Assembly: GCA_030828385.1 (NCBI GenBank)
Contig: JAURCS010000015.1
Location: forward strand, 1-64,000
Direction: 5' to 3'
DNA from: Gammaproteobacteria bacterium
Lineage (GTDB): Bacteria > Pseudomonadota > Gammaproteobacteria > Pseudomonadales > Pseudohongiellaceae
DNA: 64,000 nucleotides
Shown: positions 49,136 through 64,000 of the stretch, piece after piece
How the letters are laid out: every line of letters starts with the position of its first letter
Numbering within the stretch: the first letter of the stretch is position 1
Position numbers and translations under genes: made by a program
The notes under the pieces: generated by a model
Told to the model about the DNA's origin: nothing
What the model saw: the letters and a program-made list of their open reading frames with translations, nothing else
The model's database searches: none

Positions 49136-49693
49136 ATGGCAAACGAAACAAAACAGCCTATGAATAAACGTCTGAAATTATTTATTCCCGTCGCGGTTTT
49201 TATAACCATGGCGGGTTTTCTGTTATTTGGGCTGACACGTGACCCCAATATTGTGCCTTCTGCAATGGTCGACAAACCCCTGCCTGAATTTTCTCTGCCG
49301 GGCCTGTACCCAGAGTCAGGAGAGTTTTCCCGTGCTGATATTGTGGGCGATATTCTTATCGTTAATATATGGGGCTCATGGTGTTTGCCATGTCACATTG
49401 AGCATCCCTTTTTGCTTGAAATGAGTGAGAAGGATCCATCACTTACTTTTGTCGGCATAAGTTATGACGACTCCATGGCGGAAGATCGTCTTTTCCTTGA
49501 AGAAAGGGGTAATCCTTTTGACTACAATGTTGTTGATCTGGGCGGATCCCTGCGAATTGATCTCGGGGTAACCGGGGCTCCGGAAACCTTCCTGGTTGAT
49601 GCCAATGGCATGATTCTTTACCGCCATATCGGTGCTATCGACAGCATTACATGGAAGAACACCTTTGAACCATTACTGGCACAAATCAGGTAA
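49136..49693 (+). CDS. ccmG: Thiol:disulfide oxidoreductase CcmG (DsbE)
   Basis: A membrane-anchored thioredoxin of 185 aa with anchor near 12-32 and redox motif WGSWCLPCHIEHP. The cis-Pro loop is GVTGAPETFLVD. It reduces apocytochrome cysteines or CcmH, using electrons from DsbD. No clear ribosome site is seen; 49136 is chosen because it leaves a short cytoplasmic leader, and 49160 is an alternative. Confidence 0.93.
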   Translation: MANETKQPMNKRLKLFIPVAVFITMAGFLLFGLTRDPNIVPSAMVDKPLPEFSLPGLYPESGEFSRADIVGDILIVNIWGSWCLPCHIEHPFLLEMSEKDPSLTFVGISYDDSMAEDRLFLEERGNPFDYNVVDLGGSLRIDLGVTGAPETFLVDANGMILYRHIGAIDSITWKNTFEPLLAQIR

Positions 49694-49697
49694 AGCC

Positions 49698-50168
49698 ATG
49701 TTGCTATCATCCCGCTTAATAACACTTGTCCTGCTTTTGCTTTCCTTTCAGGCACTGGGAGCTATTCAGGAGTACGCGTTTGATTCCGAGCAGGAAGAAG
49801 ACCGCTTTAAAAAACTGACTTATGAAATGCGCTGCCCCAAATGCCTCAATTCAAATCTTGCTGGTTCTGATGCACCTATTGCTGCGGATTTACGCCGCGA
49901 AATTTACGATCAAATTACAGAAGGTCGCAGCAATGATGAAATCATTGAGTTTATGAGTAGTCGTTACGGCGATTTTATTCTCTATCGTCCGCGCCTGACC
50001 ATCGCTACATTCTTTCTCTGGTTTAGTCCGGCCTTTTTATTGCTCGCCGGATTTTTTATTGTCAGGCGCATGATGCTGGCGAGCCAGTTGTCCGGTCAAA
50101 ACGATGGTGCTCTTTCATCAGAAGAGCAGGACAAACTTCACCGCCTACTCGATAATCAATCGGACTGA
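49698..50168 (+). CDS. ccmH: Cytochrome c maturation protein CcmH
   Basis: A 156-aa protein with signal peptide (...SFQALGA), redox motif MRCPKCLNSNLAGSDAP and a C-terminal membrane helix near 105-125. The usual motif is LRCxxCQNQ; here Lys and Leu-Asn replace typical residues but both cysteines remain. The ATG at 49698 lies 5 bases past the ccmG stop. Confidence 0.94.
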   Translation: MLLSSRLITLVLLLLSFQALGAIQEYAFDSEQEEDRFKKLTYEMRCPKCLNSNLAGSDAPIAADLRREIYDQITEGRSNDEIIEFMSSRYGDFILYRPRLTIATFFLWFSPAFLLLAGFFIVRRMMLASQLSGQNDGALSSEEQDKLHRLLDNQSD

Positions 50169-50174
50169 TTTTTT

Positions 50175-51434
50175 ATGAATTCCTTCTGGCTTTACAGCAC
50201 AATTCTGCTGATCGTTTCTTTGCTTTTCATCCTGGTGCCGGTATTGCGCTATCGCCCGGTAATCAAAACTGCGGATGATGAAATTCGTAAACAAAAAAAT
50301 ATTGAAGTATTTCAACAAAGCCTTGCAGAACTTGAACAGGATAAAACCGAGGAAGTTATTTCTGAAGAAGAGTTCGAAAAACTGAAGGCCGAGTTGCAAC
50401 GCAGTTTCCTGAGAGATATGGAAGATGAAAAAAGCAGAACAAAAGCAGCCGGGCAAAGCAGCAATAAACTCATTCCCTTGTTATGCCTGCTATTTATTCC
50501 TGCGTTCAGTTATTCATTGTATGAGGTAGTGGGCTCGGCGCGAGACCTGGCGCTGCCGGCAATCATGCAGCAATTGTCTGCAGCAGAAACAGCGGAGCAG
50601 CAACTGGATGGCCTGAACCGATTGGCAGACCTGTTACAGCAACGTTACGATCGTAATAATGATGACATCCAGAATGGCTATATGCTGGGCACGCTCTATC
50701 TGGAGCTGGAAAACTTTGAACAAGCCATTGCTGTATTCACATCGATGGTAGGTGTTATGGAGCCGAGCCCGGATAAGGCGACGGTACTGGGTCAGTTGGC
50801 TCAGTCCATGTATATGGCCGCCGGTTCCAAGATGACGCCCGCAGTAGAACAGGTTATTGGCGAAGCGCAGTCCCTGAATCCCAATGAATTCACAATTCTG
50901 AGCCTGCTGGCTATAGATTCATTTTTAAATGAAAATTTTGCCCAGGCATTGACCTATTGGCGCCGGCAACTGGCGCAACTGGATCGAAACTCCCAACAGG
51001 CTGCGGTGTTGAGCAGTCGAATTGCCCAGGTGGAATCGTTGTTGCCAGCATCAGCACTGGCAGCTACTGAGACAACAGACACCCAGGGGCCCTCAGTGTC
51101 GCTTGTTATTGAGCTTGATGAGTCGATAAAAGATTTGGTCGACGATTCCATGCGGCTGTTTGTTTATGCCAGAAACCCCGCCATGCCGATGCCTCTGGCC
51201 GCTCAAACACTATCAGTTCCGGATTTTCCGTTTGAGATTACACTGGATGATTCCATGGCCATGATTGCCAATATGACCTTGTCTACGGCACAGGAAGTTA
51301 TTGTCGGAGCAAGGCTCTCCAAATCAGGTAATGCCATTGCTCAATCCGGTGACATTCAGGTAGTTTCTGAGCCCTTTACCCTGGCAGAGCAGGATGAGGC
51401 CATCATCTTGACCATTAAAGATATTGTGCCCTGA
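50175..51434 (+). CDS. ccmI: Cytochrome c maturation protein CcmI (TPR apocytochrome chaperone)
   Basis: A 419-aa protein: two membrane helices (about 3-23 and 98-117) bracket a charged coiled-coil loop. A periplasmic TPR region follows (about 125-300; NGYMLGTLYLELENFEQAI and similar), then a beta-rich C-terminal domain (about 310-415). It delivers apocytochrome c to CcmF/CcmH. Last gene of the ccm operon, 6 bases after ccmH. No terminator is evident after it. Confidence 0.9.
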   Translation: MNSFWLYSTILLIVSLLFILVPVLRYRPVIKTADDEIRKQKNIEVFQQSLAELEQDKTEEVISEEEFEKLKAELQRSFLRDMEDEKSRTKAAGQSSNKLIPLLCLLFIPAFSYSLYEVVGSARDLALPAIMQQLSAAETAEQQLDGLNRLADLLQQRYDRNNDDIQNGYMLGTLYLELENFEQAIAVFTSMVGVMEPSPDKATVLGQLAQSMYMAAGSKMTPAVEQVIGEAQSLNPNEFTILSLLAIDSFLNENFAQALTYWRRQLAQLDRNSQQAAVLSSRIAQVESLLPASALAATETTDTQGPSVSLVIELDESIKDLVDDSMRLFVYARNPAMPMPLAAQTLSVPDFPFEITLDDSMAMIANMTLSTAQEVIVGARLSKSGNAIAQSGDIQVVSEPFTLAEQDEAIILTIKDIVP

Positions 51435-51478
51435 TTCGTTCACCAATACTGTTATAACCAAGGACAACTATCTGCTCT

Positions 51479-52717
51479 ATGTCGGCCAGGTCTGCAGGTA
51501 AATTTTCTTCGCTGCGTTCTGCTTTTTCCAATCGCAACTATGCGATTTACATGAGTGGTAACAGCATCTCATTGATTGGTTTCTGGATGCAGCGTCTGGC
51601 TGTATCCTGGCTGGCCTGGGTGTTGTCGGAGTCAGAGTTCTGGGTTGCGGCGGTAGCCTTTGTCGAAATTTTTCCACTGATTCTCGTCACACCTTTATTT
51701 GGTGTATGGGCTGATCGCTTTGATCGCAAATCAATGGCAGTCATTGCCCAGGTACTGATGATGTTGCAGGCATTTATCCTGTTCTTTCTCGCCTGGTTCA
51801 ATTTACTAAACATTGGTTTGTTATTTGTGTTGGCAATGACAGAAGGAATTATTCAGGCAGCGTATCAGCCCATTCGACTTTCCATTATTCCCAATCTGGT
51901 CAAAAAAGAAGATCTGGTCAGTGCTGCTGCTTTTACCGCCGTGGCCTTTAATGTTGCCAGGTTTGCTGGTCCTGCTCTGGCTGGTGTCGTCATAGCTGTA
52001 TCCAGTCCTGCAATGGCTATTCTATTTAATGCAGTAAGTTATTTGCTCATTGTAATTGCCTGGATTTTTATAAAAGTTCCTGCTCGTGCCAGAACAACAG
52101 AGCCAAAATCATTTATGCAGGATATCCGTGCTGGTTTTAATTACGTGCTTGATAAGAAAGCCCTGTTTTATATGTTCGCTTTACTGACCATAGTGTCTCT
52201 ATTTATTCGCCCGGTTGCCTTTATGCTGTCGGCTTTTGTGGGTGCAGTTTACGAATCAGGTCCTCTGACTCTGGCTATGTTTACCTCGGCGATGGGCATT
52301 GGCGCGGTTCTGGCCGGTCTGAGGTTATCCATGGATGGCCACACCACGGGACTGATTCGAGAGATTCTTCTGATGACCCTTATCGGAATACTTTCAATGA
52401 TAGGCTTTGCTTCAATTACAACCCCCTGGCTGGCTACGGCGCTGATGTTCATCTTTGGCTACGCCGTAACCATTGGCAGTGTGGCCGGGCAGACCCTGGT
52501 GCAAAATAGTATTGATGATGACATGCGGGGCAGGGTCTTGAGCTTATGGGCAGCCTTTACACGCGGAGCGCCTGCTGTCGGGGTGTTACTGATTGGCTGG
52601 TTTGCAAACCGGTTTGGTCTGATGTGGCCCAATATCATAGCCGCTTTGTTTTGTTTTACCGGCCTGCTTCTGATGATGGGGAAAAGGCGTGAGATGCGCG
52701 CTTTTTTTGAAAGTTAA
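51479..52717 (+). CDS. MFS transporter (EntS-like)
   Basis: A 412-aa protein with twelve predicted helices and the MFS motif GVWADRFDRKSM between helices 2 and 3. The YQPIRLSIIPNLVKKEDLVSA segment without its last residue is typical of the EntS/MFS_3 export group. Substrate unknown. It starts 44 bases after ccmI with no terminator between, so it may share readthrough from the ccm operon. Confidence 0.9.
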   Translation: MSARSAGKFSSLRSAFSNRNYAIYMSGNSISLIGFWMQRLAVSWLAWVLSESEFWVAAVAFVEIFPLILVTPLFGVWADRFDRKSMAVIAQVLMMLQAFILFFLAWFNLLNIGLLFVLAMTEGIIQAAYQPIRLSIIPNLVKKEDLVSAAAFTAVAFNVARFAGPALAGVVIAVSSPAMAILFNAVSYLLIVIAWIFIKVPARARTTEPKSFMQDIRAGFNYVLDKKALFYMFALLTIVSLFIRPVAFMLSAFVGAVYESGPLTLAMFTSAMGIGAVLAGLRLSMDGHTTGLIREILLMTLIGILSMIGFASITTPWLATALMFIFGYAVTIGSVAGQTLVQNSIDDDMRGRVLSLWAAFTRGAPAVGVLLIGWFANRFGLMWPNIIAALFCFTGLLLMMGKRREMRAFFES

Positions 52718-52777: not shown

Positions 52778-54328
52778 ATGATGCAGTTAACTAATATAAA
52801 GTGGCTTCTTTCCCATCATCATTGCTGGAAAAACTCTTTTCTGGTTATGGTGTGTTCATTGTTTAGTACACTTGGCTATGCCCAGCAATGGCAAGTAGGC
52901 ATGTCCTCCGACGGTACCCTGATTAGTGCCAGCGGATATCAGGTTGATAGCCAGGCGAGGCCCACAGTAGTGTTGATTGGAGGGCTGGATGGCAGGCCTG
53001 AGTCCAGTGAAAAAGTGCTGGCAGAATTTGCCCGCTACCAGACTCGTCCCAAAAGTGAACAGTCTTTTAACCTGATCGTCATCCCGGAAGCCAACCCTCA
53101 GGCAGAGTCCTTACAGTTTCCTCCCACTGGCAGAGCCTATTCGGATAACCCAGTGTCCTTTTCCCTTTGGCGCTGGCTGGGCACACACGGGCCTGACCTG
53201 GTGCTGATAGAAAGCGAGAGTGACTTTGAATTAGCGGATGCGCTGAGTAATTCAGTGGTCGCTGGCGTAGGCTATGTGCCGGCACTGCACTTGTATGATG
53301 AGCCGGAAGAACTGGGAAAAATAATGGATGAGCTGAATAATCTTCCGATTTCCCCAGCCCATGAAATTCTTGATCAACGCCTGATGCGTTCGCCAAGACA
53401 GTTTGCCGAGCAGCTCGCCAGCCATTATGGCCACGACTTCTCCTGGCCGGTTTATATTCCTGGTATGGCACTGATTGGGCGTATGCGTTTGGGATATCTG
53501 GCAGACGTCAGCGAGGTTATTGCACCTTATCTTGATGGTACAGATATTGAAATCAATTCTTCTCTGGTGACTGCTGGCCATCTGGTATTTGCAGAAATGG
53601 CTGAGCGCACCGGCAGGCGTGACTATCTTGATCTTGCCATAGAGGCTGCAGACATGGGATTTGATCGCAATGGCGAAATGCTGGAGGCAATGCCAATGCA
53701 CGGTGAAATGAGTGATGCGTATTTTATGGCGACGCCTTTGCTGGCAAAGGTTGGCAAGCTGACTGGGGAGCAAAAGTATTTTGATCTGGCCTTACGGCAT
53801 ATCCATTTTCTGGAGAATCTTGTTCTGCGAGACGACGGGTTATACCGCCACTCACCATTGACTGATGCAGCTTGGGGACGAGGTAATGCTTTCCCGGCGC
53901 TCGGGATGGCCCTGACACTAAGCGACTTTCCGGAAGATCAGCCAGGATTTGCTGAACTACTGTCGATTTATCAATCCCATATTAAGGCTCTGGTGCCATA
54001 CCAAGATCTCGATGGGATGTGGCATGAGGTGATTGATTATCCCGGATCTTTCGCCGAAATCAGTGCAACCGCCATGATTGCAACTGCTATTCGACGGGGT
54101 ATAGCCAGTGGTTGGCTCGATGCAAGTTACCAGTCGGTGGTAGACAGAGCATGGCGAGCAGTACAGATGCGCAGCAGCGCAGAAGGTTTTTTTGTTAATG
54201 TATGCGAATCAACCAACAAGCAGGATTCGCTGGACGCTTATCTAAACCGGGAAGCACTTATCGGCCCCGATGACAGGGCCGGAGGAATGCTGATGATGTT
54301 TGCTACCGAAATGGCAGAACTGCCTTAG
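52778..54328 (+). CDS. Exported two-domain protein: degenerate M14-like region plus GH88/GH105-like barrel
   Basis: A 516-aa protein with a signal-like N-terminus (1-36, ...STLGYAQQ). Residues about 45-195 resemble a zinc carboxypeptidase (M14) core, with VVLIGGLDGRPES where the HxxE ligand motif would be and IVIPEANPQ where such enzymes have the VVPxANPDG strand. The first His is not there, so this part is probably inactive. Residues about 245-510 resemble the GH88/GH105 unsaturated-uronyl hydrolase barrel (WGRGNAFPALGMAL, GMWHEVIDYPGSF, EISATAMIATAIRRG). Its role may be in breaking down polysaccharide fragments. The fusion is unusual. Confidence 0.72.
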   Translation: MMQLTNIKWLLSHHHCWKNSFLVMVCSLFSTLGYAQQWQVGMSSDGTLISASGYQVDSQARPTVVLIGGLDGRPESSEKVLAEFARYQTRPKSEQSFNLIVIPEANPQAESLQFPPTGRAYSDNPVSFSLWRWLGTHGPDLVLIESESDFELADALSNSVVAGVGYVPALHLYDEPEELGKIMDELNNLPISPAHEILDQRLMRSPRQFAEQLASHYGHDFSWPVYIPGMALIGRMRLGYLADVSEVIAPYLDGTDIEINSSLVTAGHLVFAEMAERTGRRDYLDLAIEAADMGFDRNGEMLEAMPMHGEMSDAYFMATPLLAKVGKLTGEQKYFDLALRHIHFLENLVLRDDGLYRHSPLTDAAWGRGNAFPALGMALTLSDFPEDQPGFAELLSIYQSHIKALVPYQDLDGMWHEVIDYPGSFAEISATAMIATAIRRGIASGWLDASYQSVVDRAWRAVQMRSSAEGFFVNVCESTNKQDSLDAYLNREALIGPDDRAGGMLMMFATEMAELP

Positions 54329-54794: not shown

Positions 54795-55304
54795 AAACCT
54801 ACTCTAAAGTAAGCCGTCAGGAACACACAACAGGCCATTGGCAAAGACATCTAACAATGTAATAAGTCATTGAATTTTAGATACTATCTCTGGCTAATGC
54901 TAGCGGGAACATTTATCATCTAGACGAAAGCAAAGAGAGATTTTGGGGGCCTGGATTGCACTTTATTTATATATTTCCTTGATAAAGAGGCATTACAGTA
55001 AGCTCCCGTTCAGATATTTGATTGATTCCTGAATAATAATAAGATGTTGAAATTGTTATCTAAAAAATAACTCTCAGGCAATTTTTTTATTGTCTCTTTG
55101 GTCTAATCAACGAGGCAGGGAATTTCGTATTTTTAAAGTAATGGTAGATTAGGTATGCCAGCCTATTTTTCATCACAGGGCTCTCAAGGATCAGGTTCTG
55201 CTAAGTTTGCAGGGCCGGGATACTAAATGGCCAGTGACTGGGGAAAAGCATATTTACACAGTTGGATTAGTCTAAAATAAAACAACAGAAAACAGGTGAA
55301 CAGA
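54795..55304. other. AT-rich divergent intergenic region, no gene seen
   Basis: About 510 bases between the small minus-strand operon and the start of the exported cluster. The sequence is AT-rich with several short A/T runs. I find no ORF with a ribosome site, no tRNA and no strong hairpin. It must carry promoters in both directions and is the longest empty stretch in the window. Confidence 0.6.
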
Positions 55305-56213
55305 ATGCTCAGAATGATGACAACGCTTTTGCTGATATTGTCTGCCAGCACGTCATTAGCGGCAGAGAATTTTAAAATTCGACCTGTCGCCGACCATATT
55401 TATCTGGTGCAGGGGCCGGCCGGAAATACTGTGGTAGCAGCTGATACTGATGGACTCATCCTTTTTGATGGCGTTCCTGCACAGTATGCTCGTGAATACC
55501 TCGGATTTATAAAAGAGGAAACCGGTGTTGAGGACATCAAGACCTTGATCCTGAGTCACTGGCATGCACAGGTGACCGGCCTGAATGCCATTTTGGGGCA
55601 GCAGGGTGTTGAAATTATTGCCCATGAAAATACCAGACAATGGTTGGGATCCACCATCAGGGAACGTGGAGAGACCATTATCCATACCCCGCTGGTAGAA
55701 GAGCAGCTACCCACGCTGACCTTTTATTGGGGCCAGATTGAAAAACCGTTTCGAGATGACACCATAGAAATCGGCTATTTATTACAGGCTCATACCGATG
55801 GTGATCTTTATGCACTGGTCAGGAATGCCAATGTGCTCTATACCGGGCCAGCAATAGTTACCGATGGGTGGGCTACTGTAGATGAAACTACTAATGGTTT
55901 CATCGGAGGCATGACGGATGCCTATGCGACGCTTGGGCAGATTATTGATGACAACACTGTCATTGTTCCGATATCTGGTCCGTTGCTGAGTAAATCTGAA
56001 TTCGATGCACAACATAGTCTTTATAATGGTCTGAAAGCGGAGATGGTATCCCTGTTAAGGCAAAGCCGTAGTGCCGAGGAAGTGGTTATTGCTAATCCCG
56101 CTCAGGGACTAATGCCTGAATGGGGTGATGCCAGCGAATTTCTTGATGAAGGGTTTCGCAGTTTTTATGGCCATTTGAGGAATGGACGCCAGATCGGCGG
56201 CGGGTTTCCATGA
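55305..56213 (+). CDS. Exported metallo-beta-lactamase-fold protein with degenerate metal motif
   Basis: A 302-aa protein with signal peptide (...SASTSLAA). The fold is recognisable from VRP-type start strands, GNTVVAADTDGLILFDG, and AHTDGDLYALV. The key metal motif HxHxDH reads H85-W-H-A-Q89-V90, losing the Asp and last His, and the later TGD motif reads TGP. A two-zinc hydrolase site is therefore unlikely; a one-metal or binding role is possible. The ATG at 55305 has AGGTG 6 bases upstream; a GTG at 55296 is the longer option. It is the first gene of the exported cluster. Confidence 0.8.
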   Translation: MLRMMTTLLLILSASTSLAAENFKIRPVADHIYLVQGPAGNTVVAADTDGLILFDGVPAQYAREYLGFIKEETGVEDIKTLILSHWHAQVTGLNAILGQQGVEIIAHENTRQWLGSTIRERGETIIHTPLVEEQLPTLTFYWGQIEKPFRDDTIEIGYLLQAHTDGDLYALVRNANVLYTGPAIVTDGWATVDETTNGFIGGMTDAYATLGQIIDDNTVIVPISGPLLSKSEFDAQHSLYNGLKAEMVSLLRQSRSAEEVVIANPAQGLMPEWGDASEFLDEGFRSFYGHLRNGRQIGGGFP

Positions 56214-56360
56214 GCGGAAATTACGCCTCTGGCAGACTTTAAAGGCATGTTTCAGATGTTGTTATCCAGCCTGATTATTCAGCGAGATATTGTTTAAACA
56301 AACTGCAATTGAAATAGACAGAAAATAGTAAATATATAAAGTTAGAGAAACGGCCACGTT

Positions 56361-58802
56361 ATGAATTTAGCAATCAACAAATTGAGTATCCTCAATACCG
56401 TGTTAGTTGGTGTCCTAGGCTTGCCAGCATTTGGCATATTTGCTGCCGCCAGTGAGGAAGCTGTAGAAATCGCAAGTAGCTTTGATCGCTTTAACGAGTC
56501 TGATGAATATTTCGGCTTCCTGCAGGAAAACTGTATGGATTGTCATAACTTTGAAGATTGGGCCGGCAGCCTGGCTTTTGACCTGATGACACCGGAAGAA
56601 ATCGCCGATAATGTCGGCATTTGGGAGAAAGTAGTTCTTAAGCTGCGCGGTCGTCTGATGCCGCCAGCTGGAGCTGATCGACCGGATAATGCTGATACCG
56701 ATGAATTCATCAGCTGGCTGGAAAACTACCTTGATCATGCTGGCGCCTATGAGAGACATGTCGGCCATGTGGGAATGCATCGTCTTAACCGTAAAGAATA
56801 TGCCAATGCCATTCGCGACCTTCTCGGCATTGAGGTTGATGCAAACGCCTTGTTGCCACTGGATGATTCCATTGATGGCTTCGATAATGTTGCCCAGGCA
56901 TTGAGAGTATCACCCGCATTCCTGGAGCAGTCTATTAACTCCGCCAGAGTGGTTACTTCCCAGGCCATAGGTAACCCCAATGCGAGACCGGGGGGTACTA
57001 CTTACAGTGCCGGTGGTAATCAGTATGCACACCGTGCCGGCTTGCCGCTGGGCACGAGAGGAGGGCTGGCAGTAGAACATTATTTCCCTGCTGACGGTGA
57101 ATACGTGCTGAATATAGGCAATCTGGCTAGCAGGCTTTGGGTCTTTAATCAGGAATTTACTCACACCGTCATTGCCACCTACGACGGTGAGCGCTTTTTT
57201 GAAATGGATATTGGTGGCGCCGAAGACCTCAAGGCAATTGATCAGATCGGCGATACTGCCGTTGATGCCATTAATGCCAAGCTGAAAAATATCCCCTTCG
57301 TGGCAGAAGCTGGCCCCCATACTATCGCCGTTACTTTTATTCATCGCTCCTTTGCCGAATATGAAGGCCGCTTGCATCGCATGCAGCCTTCTGCGGTAGG
57401 TGAAAATGTCATCGGCCTAAATTCATTTGAGATCCAGGGACCATTTAACGCCGCTGGTCTGAGTGATACGCCGGCACGCAACAGGATTTTCAGTTGTTAT
57501 CCTGAAGACTTTTCCAATGTTGAGGCCTGTGCCGAGCAAATTATTAGCAGCATGTCACGCAAGGCCTTCAGAGGTCAGGTTAGTGCCACTGATATAGACA
57601 GATTAATGCGGGTTTTTGAGCAGGCCAATCTGAATGAAGGTTTTGACATGGGCATTCGACGTGCTCTTACCGCCGTCATCGCCAGTCCAAAATTTCTCTA
57701 TCGTGTTGAAGAGATTCCTGAAACCGCCAGTCCCGGTTCGGTGTTTGCGCTGACGGACTATGAACTGGCATCAAGACTGTCATTTTTCCTATGGAGCAGT
57801 ATCCCGGACGACACGCTGCTGGACCTGGCGGATGCAGGGAAATTATCAACACCGGAGGTGTTAACTGAGCAGGTTGCCAGGATGCTGCAGGATCCCAGAG
57901 CGGAAACCCTGGCTTCGAATTTCGCCTACCAGTGGTTGAACATGGGCGGGTTGGATGAAATTGATCCTGATCCAGCTATCTTCAGGGATATCGATTTTGG
58001 TATACGCGATCTGTTTAAGAAAGAAATAGAGCTTTTTGTAAAGGAGATATTTCTGAACAACAGGGATGTCACCGAGATGCTTAGTGCAGATTACACTTAC
58101 TTGAATGAACGTCTGGCTTTGCATTACGGCGATCAGACAGTGAAGGGAGATGAGTTCCGGAAAGTACCGGTGCTGGATCCTGATCGCTATGGTCTGCTTG
58201 GGAAAGGTGGTGTGTTGATGGTGTCTGCTTACCCGGATCGAACCTCACCGGTTTTACGTGGTGCCTACGTGCTTGAGCATATTACGGGTACGCCACCTCC
58301 TTTACCGCCGCCGAATGTTGAAGCCTTGCCTGAAAACCGGGCAGGCGAACAGCCAAAAACCGTAAGAGGACGTCTTGAAGCACACCGTGACAACCCGAGT
58401 TGTGCCGGCTGTCATGGCATTATAGATCCGCTGGGCTTCGCTCTTGATGGATTCGATGCTGTAGGTCGCAGTCGAACTGTAGACAGAATGGCCGGGGTGC
58501 CTATTGATACCTATGGTGTTTTGCCTGATGGCACTGATATCACCGGGGTTGAAGACCTGCGTAATGCGCTGCTGGAAAGGCCTACATTATTCGTACAAAA
58601 CCTGGTGGAAAAACTATTGATGTATGCGCTGGGTAGACCGGTCGAAGCCGAAGACATGCCGGCGGTACGACAAATTGTCAGCTCAGCGGCAGCCAACAAT
58701 TTTGAATTTTATGATATTGTTCAGAGCATAGTCAGTACTGATCAGTTTCTCTACAAGGAAGCGCCAACAAGGGTTGAAGAACTTGGCATAGCATTGAAAT
58801 AA
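56361..58802 (+). CDS. DUF1592-family exported cytochrome-like protein
   Basis: An 813-aa exported protein. Domains in order: signal peptide; heme c motif CMDCH (58-62); DUF1587 (GMHRLNRKEYANAIRDLLGI); a beta-rich insert (about 215-370); DUF1595 (MSRKAFRGQVSATDIDRLM); DUF1592 (YELASRLSFFLWSSIPDDTL); DUF1588 with a second heme c motif CAGCH near 680; and DUF1585 at the C-terminus. This architecture is abundant in Planctomycetes and found in some marine proteobacteria and Acidobacteria, with no proven function. It is followed by a DUF1552 gene, its standard partner. Confidence 0.92.
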   Translation: MNLAINKLSILNTVLVGVLGLPAFGIFAAASEEAVEIASSFDRFNESDEYFGFLQENCMDCHNFEDWAGSLAFDLMTPEEIADNVGIWEKVVLKLRGRLMPPAGADRPDNADTDEFISWLENYLDHAGAYERHVGHVGMHRLNRKEYANAIRDLLGIEVDANALLPLDDSIDGFDNVAQALRVSPAFLEQSINSARVVTSQAIGNPNARPGGTTYSAGGNQYAHRAGLPLGTRGGLAVEHYFPADGEYVLNIGNLASRLWVFNQEFTHTVIATYDGERFFEMDIGGAEDLKAIDQIGDTAVDAINAKLKNIPFVAEAGPHTIAVTFIHRSFAEYEGRLHRMQPSAVGENVIGLNSFEIQGPFNAAGLSDTPARNRIFSCYPEDFSNVEACAEQIISSMSRKAFRGQVSATDIDRLMRVFEQANLNEGFDMGIRRALTAVIASPKFLYRVEEIPETASPGSVFALTDYELASRLSFFLWSSIPDDTLLDLADAGKLSTPEVLTEQVARMLQDPRAETLASNFAYQWLNMGGLDEIDPDPAIFRDIDFGIRDLFKKEIELFVKEIFLNNRDVTEMLSADYTYLNERLALHYGDQTVKGDEFRKVPVLDPDRYGLLGKGGVLMVSAYPDRTSPVLRGAYVLEHITGTPPPLPPPNVEALPENRAGEQPKTVRGRLEAHRDNPSCAGCHGIIDPLGFALDGFDAVGRSRTVDRMAGVPIDTYGVLPDGTDITGVEDLRNALLERPTLFVQNLVEKLLMYALGRPVEAEDMPAVRQIVSSAAANNFEFYDIVQSIVSTDQFLYKEAPTRVEELGIALK

Positions 58803-58940
58803 ATGACAGGCACACGTGGTTTTGCCTGAATAATGCGGAACCAAAACAAGCTTGTTGAGCAGGTTTTAAACTGAACATTTTTAAACCAAAGACCAGGCTA
58901 AACGTAAAATCAAGTTAGAGAGTAAACAGGGAGAAACCTG

Positions 58941-60221
58941 ATGTTTATAAGCAAGAAGCATTTATCACGACGCAAGGTACTGAAGGGTGCGGGGGCCAGT
59001 ATTGCCTTACCATTTCTGGATGCAATGATTCCGGCGGTATCTGCCCAGCCAGCTGCCAAGTTGCGCCTGGGTTTTGTTTATATCCCTCATGGTGCCGTAT
59101 ACCAGAACTGGACGCCTGCCCAGACCGGGACTGCTTTTGAGATGAGCCCGATTCTGGCATCGCTGGCGGATTACAAAAGTCATATGACTGTGATCAGTGA
59201 TCTGCGAAACAAGCCTGCAGAAAGTCCGGACCCTCATGCTATTACAGCGGGAACCTGGCTGCGTTGTGTTGCTCCTGAAGGCACAAACAATCCTGAAGAT
59301 GGCATCAGTGTTGACCAGTTAGCAGCACGCACTCTTGGTGGTGAAACCCCTTTCCCGTCACTGGAGCTATCTACCAGTGGTGCCAACGGCGGAAGTTATT
59401 CCTCTACTATAGCTTTTCGCACGCCGACGCAGCCTCTGCCGATGGAGTCTAATCCCCGCAAACTTTATTTTCGAATGTTTGGTCAGGGAGATACTGCCGA
59501 GGAAAGAAATGCCATTGCCGGAGAAACCACCTCTTTACTGGACCTGGTTATGGAAGATGCCTCGTCTCTCAACAAGGAGTTGGGTGCCAGTGACCGCATT
59601 CTGATGGGGGAGTATCTCGAGTCTGTGCGCGAAATTGAAAAACAAATGGATAAACTGGCGGAACAGGATCTTTCCCATATCGATATTCCGGATGCCCCCT
59701 TGGGTGTGCCGGGCGACTTTCCAGCCCACCTGGATCTGATGTACGACCTGATGGCGTTGGCTTACCAGGCAGACCTGACCCGGGTCGCTACGTTTATGTC
59801 TGATCGTGAGGTCAGCATGCGCACCTATAATCATATCGGTGTGTCCGATGCCTTCCACCCGCTTTCCCATCATCAGGATGACCCTTCAAAACTCGATCGT
59901 CTGACTCGCGTGCAGGCATGGTATGCCTCATCATTTGCGCGCTTTGTTGGGAAGCTTGCTTCAATGCCTGATACAGAAGGGACGGTGCTTGATAATTCAA
60001 TCATTCTTTATGGAAGTTGTATGGCAAACAGCAACCTCCACAATAATGACAAGGTGCCTTCGGTAATTCTTGGTAAAGCTAATGGCCGTATCAAGGGTGG
60101 GCAACATCTGAAATATGCCCAGGATACGCCGCTGGCGAATATGATGCATACCATTCTGGATCGTGCCAACGTAGCGGTAGATTCTTTTGGTGACAGTAGT
60201 GGGCTGCTCTCTGAAGTCTAG
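58941..60221 (+). CDS. DUF1552-family protein, Tat-exported
   Basis: A 426-aa protein with a twin-arginine signal (LSRRKVLKGAGASIALPFLD) and a GGGAG-type ribosome site 7 bases before ATG. The body has DUF1552 hallmarks: GFVYIPHGAVYQNWTP, KSHMTVISDLRNKPAESPDP, YLESVREIEKQM, and VLDNSIILYGSCMANSNLH near the C-terminus. DUF1552 is distantly related to DUF1501 and the alkaline-phosphatase/sulfatase superfamily. It is exported folded, which suggests a bound metal or cofactor. It is expected to act with the DUF1592 heme protein encoded just upstream. Confidence 0.92.
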   Translation: MFISKKHLSRRKVLKGAGASIALPFLDAMIPAVSAQPAAKLRLGFVYIPHGAVYQNWTPAQTGTAFEMSPILASLADYKSHMTVISDLRNKPAESPDPHAITAGTWLRCVAPEGTNNPEDGISVDQLAARTLGGETPFPSLELSTSGANGGSYSSTIAFRTPTQPLPMESNPRKLYFRMFGQGDTAEERNAIAGETTSLLDLVMEDASSLNKELGASDRILMGEYLESVREIEKQMDKLAEQDLSHIDIPDAPLGVPGDFPAHLDLMYDLMALAYQADLTRVATFMSDREVSMRTYNHIGVSDAFHPLSHHQDDPSKLDRLTRVQAWYASSFARFVGKLASMPDTEGTVLDNSIILYGSCMANSNLHNNDKVPSVILGKANGRIKGGQHLKYAQDTPLANMMHTILDRANVAVDSFGDSSGLLSEV

Positions 60222-60259
60222 AGGCGGTGTACGGAAGGAACAGCTTTTACTGGAGTGTT

Positions 60260-61765
60260 ATGAAAACAATTATTCGCAATATACTGCTTACCGCTGCCTT
60301 TTCTGTATGCAGCCTCATGGTCTGTGCTGCTGAGGAGTCACTGGTCTCGCTTGCTGAAAAACAGCAGGTTCCCCAGGCCATTGCCATGATTGATGCCGGT
60401 GTGGATGTTAACCGCGCTTCTGCCGATGGGACGACAGCACTACACTGGGCAGCCTATTATGGCGAACTTGAACTGGCACAACGTTTGATTCGTGCGGAAG
60501 CTGATCCTGATACCCGCAATGACTATGGTTCTTCTCCTTTAGGGGAAGCGGCCACCAAGGGTGATCTGGAAATGATCAGCCTCTTGCTTGAAGCTGGCGC
60601 GGATGCCGATTCAGCAAACCCGGAAGGTCAAACCGCCTTGATGGCTGTTGCCCGGACTGGCAATATCGCTGCGGCTAAACTGCTACTTGATAAGGGGGCT
60701 GACATCAATGCCGTTGAAGGTTGGGGTGGTCAGTCAGCACTGCACTGGGCGGCCGCCAGAAAACATCCTGAGATGGTAGAGTTTCTGATCGCAAATGGCG
60801 CAGAAGTTGATGCTCGCGGTATAGATCGCAACTGGGAGCGCCGCGTGACTTCAGAACCACGTATGAAAGATATGAAGACCGGCGGTTTTACCCCTCTTTT
60901 GTATGCTGTAAGGGAGAACTGCATAGCTTGTGTTAATGCGCTGCTGAATGCCGGGGCTGATATCAATAAACCGGACCCTGATAATGTTTCGCCATTGATT
61001 TTGGCGCTGGTTAATATGCGTTATGACCTGGCGATGAATTTGATTGAACGTGGCGCTGACATAAATCAGTGGGACTACTTTGGTCGCACGCCACTTTATG
61101 CCGCCGTCGATACTCACCTAGTACCTGGGCGGAGTAATCGCGGAGACCTTCCCGCTGTGGAAAAATATACTGCCTACGATGTGGCAAAACAGTTACTTGA
61201 AAAAGGCGCAAACCCTAACTTGAGCCTGAAGCTGTATCCACCAGCTCGCGAAATAGTTTATGACAGGGGAAATGATTTTAATGTTATGAATACCGGTGCC
61301 ACCCCGATTCAGCATGCTGCTTATATGGGCGATACCGAAATGATGAAGCTGTTACTGGAACATGGAGCAGACTGGTCACAGCCAAATGCTTACGGGGTTA
61401 CCCCGATGATTGCACTGACCAGCAAGTCCACCAATGAGAATACCCGCAGTTCAGGAAAAACCGAGCTCGAAGTCATGCAAGGGCTTGATGTCCTGTTAAA
61501 GGCCGGAGCTGACCTTAATCAGAAGGGTGGACGCTTTGGCGAGACACCGTTACATACAAGCGCAAGAATGAACTGGTCGGTAGTGGTTTCTTTTCTGGTG
61601 GAAAATGGAGCGGACCTTTATGCCAAGGATGATCGAGACTTGATCCCGCTGGATTATGCTACTGGAAAGGCAGACACTCAGTCCCTGGGGGCTTTTGATG
61701 TTATTGGAGAGCTTCCCCAGATGGCCATGCAGTTAAAAAAACTTATGGAAGCTTATCCTCAATGA
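60260..61765 (+). CDS. Exported ankyrin-repeat protein
   Basis: A 501-aa protein with a signal peptide (...LMVCAAEE) followed by about ten ankyrin repeats (GTTALHWAAYYGELELAQRL, GQTALMAVARTGNIAAAKLL, GETPLHTSARMNWSVVVSFL and others), interrupted by inserts near 190 and 300-360. The ATG at 60260 has GGAG 4 bases upstream and gives the signal peptide; a GTG at 60227 is less likely. It starts 38 bases after the DUF1552 stop, so it probably belongs to the same transcript and may scaffold the exported complex. Confidence 0.9.
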   Translation: MKTIIRNILLTAAFSVCSLMVCAAEESLVSLAEKQQVPQAIAMIDAGVDVNRASADGTTALHWAAYYGELELAQRLIRAEADPDTRNDYGSSPLGEAATKGDLEMISLLLEAGADADSANPEGQTALMAVARTGNIAAAKLLLDKGADINAVEGWGGQSALHWAAARKHPEMVEFLIANGAEVDARGIDRNWERRVTSEPRMKDMKTGGFTPLLYAVRENCIACVNALLNAGADINKPDPDNVSPLILALVNMRYDLAMNLIERGADINQWDYFGRTPLYAAVDTHLVPGRSNRGDLPAVEKYTAYDVAKQLLEKGANPNLSLKLYPPAREIVYDRGNDFNVMNTGATPIQHAAYMGDTEMMKLLLEHGADWSQPNAYGVTPMIALTSKSTNENTRSSGKTELEVMQGLDVLLKAGADLNQKGGRFGETPLHTSARMNWSVVVSFLVENGADLYAKDDRDLIPLDYATGKADTQSLGAFDVIGELPQMAMQLKKLMEAYPQ

Positions 61766-61785
61766 GAATCTTCCAGCCATGTTTG

Positions 61786-61818
61786 AAAAAAGGGGAAGCT
61801 TTGGCGTCCCCTTTTTTA
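61786..61818 (+). terminator. Terminator after the ankyrin gene
   Basis: Stem aaaaagggga/tccccttttt around a 10-base loop, followed by tatt. It ends the DUF1592-DUF1552-ankyrin transcript. Confidence 0.85.
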
Positions 61819-61861
61819 TTGAATCTTTGTATAGTCTCATCTATTGGTGTTGTTAATTAAC

Positions 61862-62518
61862 ATGGCCGCTCCTGCTCTGTGGGAAACTGCGTTTTCTCAA
61901 GTGGTTGAGAAAACGACCAAACAACTTGAAAAACAGGGCTATGTCATTTTGCAGGATATTCTTCCTGAGAACTTGCTTAATGATCTGTTGCAGCATCTGC
62001 AGTCACTGGATGATGAAAAGTTTAACCGGGCCGGCGTAGGGCGAGAAAAGGATTATCATTTAAACCGCTTTATTCGACGCGATGAAATTCATTGGCTTGA
62101 AGGCTCTCATCCTGTTACCAGGGACTATTTCCGGTGGATAGAAAAACTAAGAAATGCATTAAACCGGCAATTGTTTCTTGGTTTGTTTGAGTATGAATGC
62201 CATTACGCTTTTTATCCACCTGGCGCTTTTTATAAAAAACATCTTGATGCCTTTAAGGGAACCAATTCCAGGATACTCTCTACAGTGTTATACCTGAATC
62301 CTGGATGGCTTGCTGGCGACGGCGGGGAACTGGTGATTTACCATCCTGTGAAAGACGAAGTTCTGGAAGTCATAACGCCTGATTTTGGCAAGATGGTAAT
62401 ATTCCTGAGTGAAGAATTTCCTCATGAAGTACTGCCGGCAAAAACCAGACGCTATTCTCTTACTGGTTGGTTTCGAAAAAACAACTCACTTTCGCAGTCT
62501 ATTGATCCCCTGTTATAA
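61862..62518 (+). CDS. 2-oxoglutarate/Fe(II)-dependent oxygenase, SM-20-like
   Basis: A 218-aa cytoplasmic protein with a double-stranded beta-helix. The iron site is HLDAF (His and Asp) plus FPHEVLP (second His), and the 2OG-binding Arg is in KTRRYSLTGWFR. This is the prolyl-hydroxylase-like (PiuC/SM-20) group that hydroxylates proteins or small molecules. The frame is open to a TTG at 61844, but the ATG at 61862 is the usual kind of start. No ribosome site is clear. It has its own transcript between two terminated units and may be unrelated to the exported cluster. Confidence 0.87.
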   Translation: MAAPALWETAFSQVVEKTTKQLEKQGYVILQDILPENLLNDLLQHLQSLDDEKFNRAGVGREKDYHLNRFIRRDEIHWLEGSHPVTRDYFRWIEKLRNALNRQLFLGLFEYECHYAFYPPGAFYKKHLDAFKGTNSRILSTVLYLNPGWLAGDGGELVIYHPVKDEVLEVITPDFGKMVIFLSEEFPHEVLPAKTRRYSLTGWFRKNNSLSQSIDPLL

Positions 62519-62820
62519 AGCGATATGCCCTGAAGGTAATCGTAGTTTTGGCTGGTAAGATTTTTTTCAGCTCTGGAAACCAAATCGTTGGACCGCCATC
62601 ACTTGGGTTATTTTATTGGCTAAAGATATCAAATGTAAGCTGGGTTTATGGCACTATTCCGGTAGGCATGGTTTTATATGTGATTAATAAAACAGTAGTA
62701 TTTATGAACAGGACGAATGTATATTCGTGACTTATCTAAAGCTTGGGAAATCTGCAAAAAAACCTAACAGGATCAATAAGATGCAGGGGCGGTTTCAGTG
62801 ATTGCTGAAGGGAGAGTAGA
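62519..62820. other. Gap before the DUF3500 gene, no gene accepted
   Basis: About 300 bases. A 60-codon frame at 62548-62730 lacks a ribosome site and is not accepted. No hairpin or RNA gene was recognised. Confidence 0.55.
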
Positions 62821-64000
62821 GTGAAAATAGTCAGATTAACCAGTGTAGTCATTATGATGAGTTTGCTCATAAACAACTATGCTATGGCTCAGCCTCGTGG
62901 AGCTGAAGAGTGGCTACAGATATCGCAGCAGTGGAGCGATCGTATGAATAGCGAAATGCTGTCTACGCCATTTAAAGGAATTACCACGGATGGTCAGGTG
63001 CAACAGGGCTTGTTTGAAATTCGTTCAACCGGTATCACTACCAGTCCAATCGCTGCCGCAGCCCTCGAGTTTTTGAGCACTCTGAACCCGGAGCAGCGTG
63101 AGCGTATGAGTTTTTCCGTGGAGGATAATGAGTGGCGTATGTGGGCAAACCAGCACATTTATTATCGTCAGGGAATTTCCTTTGAAGAAATGACGCCAGA
63201 TCAGCGTGCCACGGCGCTGGCAATGCTGGGACAGTCTTTAAGCGCCAGAGGCCTGGCTCTTTCCCAGGACATCATGCACCTGAATACTACTTTGGCAGAG
63301 CTCAATAATAATAATTTTCTAGAGTATGGAGAGGGCAAATACTTTTTAACAATCATGGGGGAGCCATCAGCTACTGAACCCTGGGGTTGGCAGTTGGATG
63401 GTCACCATTTGAATCTGAATTATTTTATCCTCGGGGAACAGGTTGTAATGACACCCTCTTTCTGGGGTTCAGAACCGGCAGTAGCAACCACGGGTGAGTA
63501 TGCCGGCACGGCTATTATGGAAGATGAGCAGCGCTATGGTCTGGCTATGATTAATACCCTGACTGACGCCCAGAAAGACAAGGCGGTCTTGGAGACAATG
63601 AAAACCGGAAACAACATTATGACACAGGCATTTAGTGACAATGTTGTGCTGGATTATGCCGGCATCAGCGTGTCAGAGTTTTCTTCAGCACAGAAACATC
63701 AATTGATGCGATTGGCAGGCATTTATATTGGCAATATGCGAGAGTCTTTTCAGGGGGTTCGTATGGATGAAATAGAAAAACATCTTGATGAGACCTGGTT
63801 CGCCTGGATTGGGGGAAGCGACGAAGATTCAACTTTCTATTACAGAATTCAGAGCCCCGTTGTCCTTATTGAATTTGATCATGAAACACCGGTTGGCTTA
63901 ACCCACATGTATCCCAGAGGCATTCCGTATAAAGAGCATATCCATGCCATTGTACGTACACCTAATGGCAATGATTACGGAAAGGATTTATTGAGACAAC
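62821..64000 (+). CDS. DUF3500-family exported protein (3' end outside window)
   Basis: An open frame from a GTG at 62821, with a GGGAGAG site upstream, to the last base: 393 residues so far. A signal peptide (MKIVRLTSVVIMMSLLINNY, then AMA) precedes the DUF3500 pattern. Recognisable parts are the PFKGITTDGQVQQGLF start, WGWQLDGHHLNLNYFI near 198, GSEPAVATTGEYAGTAIM near 225, LAGIYIGNMRE near 300 and a TFYYRIQSPVVLIEFDHE segment near 345. DUF3500 proteins are exported and uncharacterised. Its presence right after the DUF1592/DUF1552 set supports a multi-gene exported system that continues beyond the window. Confidence 0.88.
   Translation, partial: MKIVRLTSVVIMMSLLINNYAMAQPRGAEEWLQISQQWSDRMNSEMLSTPFKGITTDGQVQQGLFEIRSTGITTSPIAAAALEFLSTLNPEQRERMSFSVEDNEWRMWANQHIYYRQGISFEEMTPDQRATALAMLGQSLSARGLALSQDIMHLNTTLAELNNNNFLEYGEGKYFLTIMGEPSATEPWGWQLDGHHLNLNYFILGEQVVMTPSFWGSEPAVATTGEYAGTAIMEDEQRYGLAMINTLTDAQKDKAVLETMKTGNNIMTQAFSDNVVLDYAGISVSEFSSAQKHQLMRLAGIYIGNMRESFQGVRMDEIEKHLDETWFAWIGGSDEDSTFYYRIQSPVVLIEFDHETPVGLTHMYPRGIPYKEHIHAIVRTPNGNDYGKDLLRQ

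Follow-up and report, generated by a model that had tools for sequence, protein, structure and literature searches.

A conserved exported DUF1592-DUF1552-ankyrin module present in more than a dozen copies in a gammaproteobacterial genome

Six genes lie on the forward strand from 55.3 kb to the end of a 64,000-nucleotide stretch, hereafter the window, of contig JAURCS010000015.1 (assembly GCA_030828385.1), from a gammaproteobacterium of the family Pseudohongiellaceae. They encode a metallo-beta-lactamase-fold (MBL) protein, a DUF1592 protein, a DUF1552 protein, an ankyrin-repeat protein, a 2-oxoglutarate (2OG)-Fe(II) oxygenase and a DUF3500 protein. A first-pass annotation had reported these genes, all of which were found as claimed, and our Pfam scan of the ten proteins at 49.6–64 kb agreed with each name; that annotation had also proposed a periplasmic redox or hydrolytic complex of the heme protein with its Tat-exported partner and an ankyrin scaffold. 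The question raised by this locus is which of the genes belong together and what their products may do. Our analyses revealed that DUF1592, DUF1552 and ankyrin genes, often accompanied by an MBL gene, are a conserved exported module that has more than a dozen copies in this genome. As to its chemistry, we infer an oxidoreductase of the periplasm that uses metal and heme, is assembled on a scaffold of ankyrin repeats and has been multiplied for different substrates, a reading that falls a little short of being probable.

The genome (2.62 Mb in 149 contigs) has 15 DUF1592 matches and 17 DUF1552 matches, the latter in 16 genes. Its 80 Ank_2 matches all fall within 17 genes when their coordinates are recounted, and 16 of those genes adjoin DUF1592 and/or DUF1552, an arrangement with a probability of ~4e-18 under random placement (3 kb rule, 18 sites). 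All three core genes occur together at twelve sites and elsewhere one is absent, sometimes due to a contig end. MBL relatives are present at eight sites, and the gene order of the module is variable, with the ankyrin gene first, last or behind the MBL gene. Over the twelve complete cassettes, paralogues share 37–49% identity for DUF1592, 35–58% for DUF1552 and 26–48% for ankyrin (proteins below our length limits were excluded from the family alignments), and the pairwise distances of the three proteins correlate, with Mantel r values of 0.79, 0.75 and 0.78 (p 1e-4, 9,999 permutations). The same correlation over 52 loci gave r values of 0.87, 0.82 and 0.86 (p 5e-4, 1,999 permutations). Judged by their sequences, the module copies are old and move as units; joint divergence of this kind can stem from joint inheritance alone and is no proof of contact between the proteins. 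One DUF1552 copy (L025, G000:C61:63888-64809) is split across two frames, so that either the gene is broken or the assembly is wrong. The 125-kb contig C72 (L010, L017, L021, L022, L026), ~5% of the genome, holds six of the 19 module sites (p 0.0002), a clustering that possibly marks a catabolic island.

Named genomes were also scanned with an alignment of 14 paralogues. Of 583 confirmed loci, the best 80 were used for calling neighbors with profiles built from the genome's own copies; by their record prefixes, they come from 53 assemblies. These 80 loci are mostly titled as Gammaproteobacteria, Proteobacteria or Acidobacteria and subgroups, with few Alphaproteobacteria, and are no random sample because they are the closest relatives. 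DUF1592 was present at 76 of them, 75 times within 3 kb of DUF1552. Ankyrin genes were identified at 75 loci and MBL genes at 49, in every case no more than 3 kb away; 73 of the ankyrin genes and 45 of the MBL genes share the strand. Three of the five loci without ankyrin stop no more than 0.9 kb from DUF1552 (L047, L089, L093), whereas L039 and probably L068 are truly without it. The 2OG oxygenase was found at a single locus and DUF3500 at none. The grouping put forward initially therefore stands for MBL, DUF1592, DUF1552 and ankyrin, and does not extend to DUF3500. One locus with the module (L075) is titled as a Klebsiella pneumoniae metagenome-assembled genome (MAG; MoH-23oct19-118), a label that is probably wrong since the other loci of the set bear environmental or unspecific titles.

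Among relatives of the same family, DUF1592 and ankyrin were identified at 16 of 20 DUF1552 loci, which were hand-picked among the matches listed and include five from one genome. DUF1552 matches per genome, among those listed, number 12–17 in seven members of the genus, 14–19 in three of a second genus and 0–4 in the rest of the family, and in a sample of the class any DUF1552 was found in six of 140 genomes, including the one studied here. Four genomes of g2, another genus of the family, each have one DUF1552 gene without DUF1592 or ankyrin (L127, L131, L135, L136). The two orphans inspected, those of L127 and L136, each have a glutathione S-transferase gene immediately upstream, and a Pfam scan of the orphans' neighbors gave no clear clue. 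DUF1552 is also present on 15 plasmid records, five of which were opened. The plasmid of Novosphingobium KACC 22771 has DUF1592-DUF1552-ankyrin, and no ankyrin match was found at the other four loci (Planctomyces SH-PL62, Sphingobium herbicidovorans, Novosphingobium RL4 and Sphingobium TomTYG46). Ankyrin, which does not accompany every pair, thus sets apart one branch within a broader DUF1592-DUF1552 kind. In S. herbicidovorans (L144), genes annotated as cytochrome c (one CXXCH), cytochrome b/b6 and short-chain dehydrogenase/reductase come after the pair, and the surroundings include a TonB receptor as well as Rieske and flavin monooxygenase genes; in TomTYG46 the gene after the pair is without CXXCH.

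The claim that five of the six window genes carry export signals, one of them for the twin-arginine translocation (Tat) pathway, agreed with our examination, in which Sec signals were judged by reading. Sec-type N-termini are seen in the MBL, DUF1592, ankyrin and DUF3500 proteins and none in the 2OG oxygenase. The DUF1552 N-terminus, MFISKKHLSRRKVL, is a Tat-type signal whose R10 and R11 are invariant in all 99 aligned proteins, 88 of which match a fuller Tat pattern. A crude hydropathy count was discarded as a signal-peptide test as it was not discriminating, with 68 of 128 arbitrary neighbors passing too.

The DUF1552 protein (Pfam match of 296.6 bits) is predicted from its model to have an alkaline phosphatase superfamily fold, the best structural matches being LtaS, sulfatases and nucleotide pyrophosphatases. 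Comparison of its profile with a sulfatase alignment (9 of 14 loci used) gave no match, and a sequence search against solved structures returned only one, chance-level match (E 0.77). His99, H306, H310 and H367 are each conserved in 99 of 99 proteins, H311 in 98 and H389 in 94, and the HXXSHH motif with His367 and His389 is probably a metal site. Where a Ser/Thr/Cys nucleophile would be expected beside a two-metal Asp/His site, DUF1552 appears to have the invariant His99, as mapped by the order of secondary-structure elements. The protein thus differs from the alkaline phosphatase, sulfatase and nucleotide pyrophosphatase superfamily in having no detectable sequence similarity to it and, apparently, a His at the nucleophile place. 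Because of that His, and of a site rich in His, DUF1552 would no longer be a phosphatase or sulfatase.

Exactly two heme c motifs (CXXCH) are present in the DUF1592 protein, as had been noted, and each of the 15 DUF1592 paralogues of the genome likewise has two. Its PSD3, PSD5, PSD4, PSCyt3 and PSD2 domains all scored above the Pfam cut-off, assigning it to the DUF1592/PSCyt3 family. The C, C and H of the first motif are found in 81 of 84 sequences, the remaining three being gapped there, and a Met100-Pro-Pro stretch is present in all 84; Met100 is likely the second ligand of heme 1, to judge from this conservation. The DUF1592 profile had no match among solved chains at E ≤ 1, and a structure search gave no match of any kind at E ≤ 0.001. 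Outside a jelly roll there was no useful structural match, which does not show that the fold is new.

The MBL fold of the window copy is degenerate, as first described, with HWHAQV in place of HxHxDH, the D and last H being gone. The zinc-ligand set of MBL hydrolases (HxHxDH and further ligands) is therefore incomplete in a protein that does match the profile. Among 58 relatives the D position is D in 28 and E in 22, the last H is H in 16, and the position of the final His ligand is His in six, a count that depends on the alignment. Assignment to an NCBIfam family of quinoprotein-relay hydrolases was left unused since the score of 23.3 bits is far below the cut-off of 280. The CxxC of the ankyrin protein comes as a pair, with both Cys present in 68 of 90 sequences and the two Cys, counted separately, in 69 and 70. 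It occurred more often at loci that have an MBL gene (p 0.0006 in the named loci, 0.05 in the own genome), which is only a lead because the sequences are related, and had no association with the position of the MBL gene. No fusions of module proteins were found in the open frames scanned.

Comparison of the window copy with ten near-orthologous regions (six from the genus and four from the second genus, two of these from one genome) and additionally with L028, a named MAG, identified MBL-DUF1592-DUF1552 in all ten and ankyrin in nine, the tenth having a contig end. The 2OG oxygenase follows ankyrin in L147, L151, L153, L155, L156 and L028 and is absent in L149, L152 and L154, and L148 and L150 do not reach that far. 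With its single occurrence among the 80 loci, it was demoted to an accessory of the window copy's orthologues. DUF3500 was found in only two of the eight near regions reaching far enough (L149, as a fragment, and L152) and at two places in the genome, one of these a partial match near a contig end; with none at the 80 loci, it was rejected as a core part and its assignment to the group given up. Upstream, an MFS transporter gene is present in seven of the ten regions. Five of the seven (L149, L150, L151, L155, L156) also have CycH, and three (L149, L151, L156) have CcmH; L028 has all three genes. L147 stops short of these genes; L153 and L154 are without them and may be other copies. All six regions from the genus have a GH88 gene upstream; none was seen in the four from the second genus, of which L153 covers only 1.4 kb upstream. 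Stretches around the other module copies of the genome had no CcmH or CycH match. The link to the cytochrome c maturation (ccm) operon suggested in the first-pass annotation is thus a synteny kept for the window copy in the genus, the second genus and L028, and is not found in the stretches around the other copies. Counts of promoter- and terminator-like signals were those of shuffled sequences, a scan that gives no support for co-transcription. The features of the window are collected in Table 1.

Table 1. Positions of the module genes, their motifs and flanking genes in the 64,000-nucleotide window.
Feature	Position	Strand	Remarks
CcmH, CcmH/CycH-type protein, MFS transporter	49632..52717	+	Pfam; end of upstream ccm region, conserved synteny
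GH88 gene upstream of module	52778-54328		Pfam
Exported degenerate MBL-fold protein	55296..56213	+	ATG at 55305; PF00753, 25.6 bits vs cut-off 22.7
DUF1592 protein	56361..58802	+	DUF1587, DUF1595, DUF1592, DUF1588 and DUF1585 domains; two heme c motifs; jelly roll like a carbohydrate-binding module, residues 206-366
Heme c motif 1 of DUF1592	56532..56546	+	Residues 58-62
Heme c motif 2 of DUF1592	58401..58415	+	Residues 681-685; kept in 84/84 sequences
DUF1552 (HXXSHH) protein	58941..60221	+	Tat signal; predicted alkaline phosphatase/sulfatase fold
Twin arginine of DUF1552 Tat signal	58968..58973	+	Residues 10-11
DUF1552 His99	59235..59237	+	Expected nucleophile place, by secondary-structure order
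DUF1552 HXXSHH motif	59856..59873	+	Residues 306-311
Exported ankyrin-repeat protein	60227..61765	+	Likely ATG 60260; PF00023/PF12796
CxxC of ankyrin protein	60920..60931	+	Residues 232-235, counted from 60227
2OG-Fe(II) oxygenase	61844..62518	+	PF13640, 83 bits; accessory of window copy's orthologues
DUF3500 protein, bystander	62821..64000	+	Runs past window end, stop at contig base 64023; PF12006, 334 bits

Neighbors of the module were tallied for 126 of 128 proteins in the own genome and 113 of 118 elsewhere, the latter taken from 395 by proximity, with no more than two from any locus; several of the seven left out overlap a core gene or lie at the end of a stretch. The tallied families are the 25 commonest of 139 in the own genome and of 109 elsewhere. 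Pyrroloquinoline quinone (PQQ) quinoproteins represent five of the 126 own-cassette neighbors versus 23 genes in the genome by our own count (p 0.006, assuming ~2,400 genes) and six of the 113 elsewhere, a count without a genome background. A cytochrome domain is present in each of the four, out of five own PQQ neighbors, that were scanned individually. With its ~23 PQQ quinoprotein genes, and seven sulfatase matches counted in a wider search, the 2.6-Mb genome appears rich in periplasmic oxidation. In cassette C138 (L012:2628-3200), a protein of 191 amino acids encoded between DUF1552 and ankyrin resembles the heme-binding domain of quinohemoprotein amine dehydrogenase at 24.9 bits, just under the cut-off of 25.2. 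The commonest named neighbor family in the own genome is DUF6152, with six of 126 (L009-L026), and two of 113 were found elsewhere.

As regards the complex proposed at the outset, its redox half is plausible and preferred, and its hydrolytic half is less likely, given the invariant His that appears to stand where the nucleophile should be. In the oxidoreductase that we favor, DUF1552 would be the catalytic metalloenzyme, folded around its metal before Tat export, and would oxidize a small substrate, perhaps a sugar, an alcohol or a phenolic compound, possibly bound near the DUF1592 jelly roll. Electrons would pass from DUF1552 to the two hemes of DUF1592 and reach the respiratory chain by way of a soluble cytochrome c. 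DUF1592 and DUF1552 may be joined by the ankyrin protein as a dedicated scaffold, and the MBL-like protein may be an accessory. Copies of the module would differ in substrate, which we propose as the reason why twelve complete, anciently diverged sets, and several partial ones, have been kept in the genome. In favor of this reading are the conservation of the module, the joint divergence of its core proteins, the paired heme motifs of all 15 DUF1592 paralogues, the predicted fold and invariant His residues of DUF1552, the redox genes near the module (the cytochrome genes of S. herbicidovorans, the PQQ quinoproteins and the protein in cassette C138) and the ccm synteny of the window copy. A bolder version, in which DUF1552 represents a new class of redox metalloenzyme on the alkaline phosphatase fold, its nucleophile replaced by a metal-binding His and its site wired to two-heme DUF1592 on a periplasmic ankyrin scaffold, would make the module the oxidative counterpart of sulfatase and SusCD toolkits, with more than a dozen substrate-specific copies in 2.6 Mb; we consider this version somewhat unlikely. 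To our knowledge, a redox enzyme on that fold would, if true, widen the chemistry known for the superfamily.

The main rival is that DUF1552 is a true hydrolase of the sulfatase or phosphatase type that trims a substrate, with DUF1592 performing a separate redox step on the product. Its best structural matches, the GH88 gene upstream in the six same-genus regions, and the sulfatase genes often found near PSCyt genes in some Verrucomicrobia (PMC5615132) all fit such an enzyme. We nevertheless regard it as unlikely, since His99 apparently occupies the nucleophile place, an H-x-x-x-H is found where D-x-x-x-H would be expected, and the second genus's four regions showed no GH88 gene within the stretches they cover. 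The two heme motifs of DUF1592 could instead point to a periplasmic defense against peroxide or radicals, in which a heme enzyme has an ankyrin helper as in the KatB-AnkB pair of Pseudomonas aeruginosa. This is quite unlikely: many diverged copies suit a variety of substrates better than a single defense reaction, and no catalase or peroxidase was found among the ten window proteins scanned with Pfam; the structure search with DUF1592, having no match at its threshold, speaks neither for nor against a peroxidase.

DUF1592 could also be an electron donor to lytic polysaccharide monooxygenases (LPMOs), as proposed for Cbp2D of Cellvibrio, with which it has DUF1587 and c-type hemes in common (PMC8981238); this role is largely refuted here, and extremely improbable, since the genome has no match to LPMO_10, the LPMO family searched. 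The place of the window copy behind the ccm region could suggest a role for the module in maturing cytochrome c or supplying heme, and the CycH-MFS-MBL-DUF1592-DUF1552-ankyrin synteny in the second genus and L028 accords with this. The other copies are, however, without CcmH or CycH in the stretches around them and 134 of 140 class genomes have no DUF1552 match (a count on DUF1552 only, whatever their ccm genes), making this role very unlikely. That the grouping is due to chance fits DUF3500 and is already refuted for the four core genes by the 16 of 17 ankyrin genes that adjoin the module and the 75 of 80 loci with ankyrin elsewhere, such that its likelihood is close to nil.

Polysaccharide utilization loci of the SusCD type resemble the module in that a single exported gene set has diverged into many copies, which suggests a separate copy for each substrate. 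They differ in their components, since neither SusC/SusD nor glycoside hydrolases figure in the 25 commonest of the 139 neighbor families in the own genome. The fixed module with its dedicated ankyrin partner offers a unit for expression and assay, and substrates could be found by comparing the dozen variants that this genome naturally has. The DUF1592-DUF1552 pair is already known, and the ankyrin/MBL module is undescribed in the literature searched: within a search whose scope left most subscription papers outside, no paper had both DUF1592 and DUF1552 and none described the module. PSCyt3/PSD proteins of Planctomycetes and Verrucomicrobia are alike in the kind of domains and are likewise encoded next to DUF1552. 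The locus of Planctomyces sp. SH-PL62 is an example and, unlike the window module, has no ankyrin or MBL gene. PSCyt-type cytochrome genes are numerous in many Verrucomicrobia without a known reaction and usually adjoin unknown families of unknown function (PMC5615132); the word ankyrin is absent from that paper, as is DUF1552 from its main text. Elsewhere, a secreted DUF1552 protein of Rhodopirellula is listed (PMC2754498), the domains are merely listed (PMC7789669), and PSCyt1 is named in methods only (PMC11495043).

AnkB of P. aeruginosa is a periplasmic ankyrin protein supporting the heme enzyme KatB, and katB-ankB is one unit according to a cited title (PMC3091734). KatB is a catalase, whereas the partners in the window module are a two-heme DUF1592 protein and DUF1552, and the ten proteins at 49.6–64 kb include no catalase gene beside the ankyrin gene. 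In Cbp2D of Cellvibrio japonicus, DUF1587 is combined with two CXXCH domains at the C-terminus (PMC8981238), and the protein is important when the bacterium grows on insoluble cellulose (PMC12542752). It differs in having CBM2, a YceI-like domain and FN3, none of which were found by Pfam in the window DUF1592 protein, where DUF1587 was identified. For the X183 cytochrome domain of Cbp2D-type proteins, the comparison available is the above search of solved chains with the DUF1592 profile, which had no match at E ≤ 1. A Cellvibrio DUF1592 protein with CBM2 was reported in the proteome of a lignocellulose community (PMC6004670), and TERTU_3803/TERTU_2913 of Teredinibacter are of the Cbp2D type, DUF1687 being printed there, perhaps as a misprint (PMC10916295). 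At a guess, the X132 region of the Teredinibacter proteins corresponds to the DUF1592-1588-1585 region.

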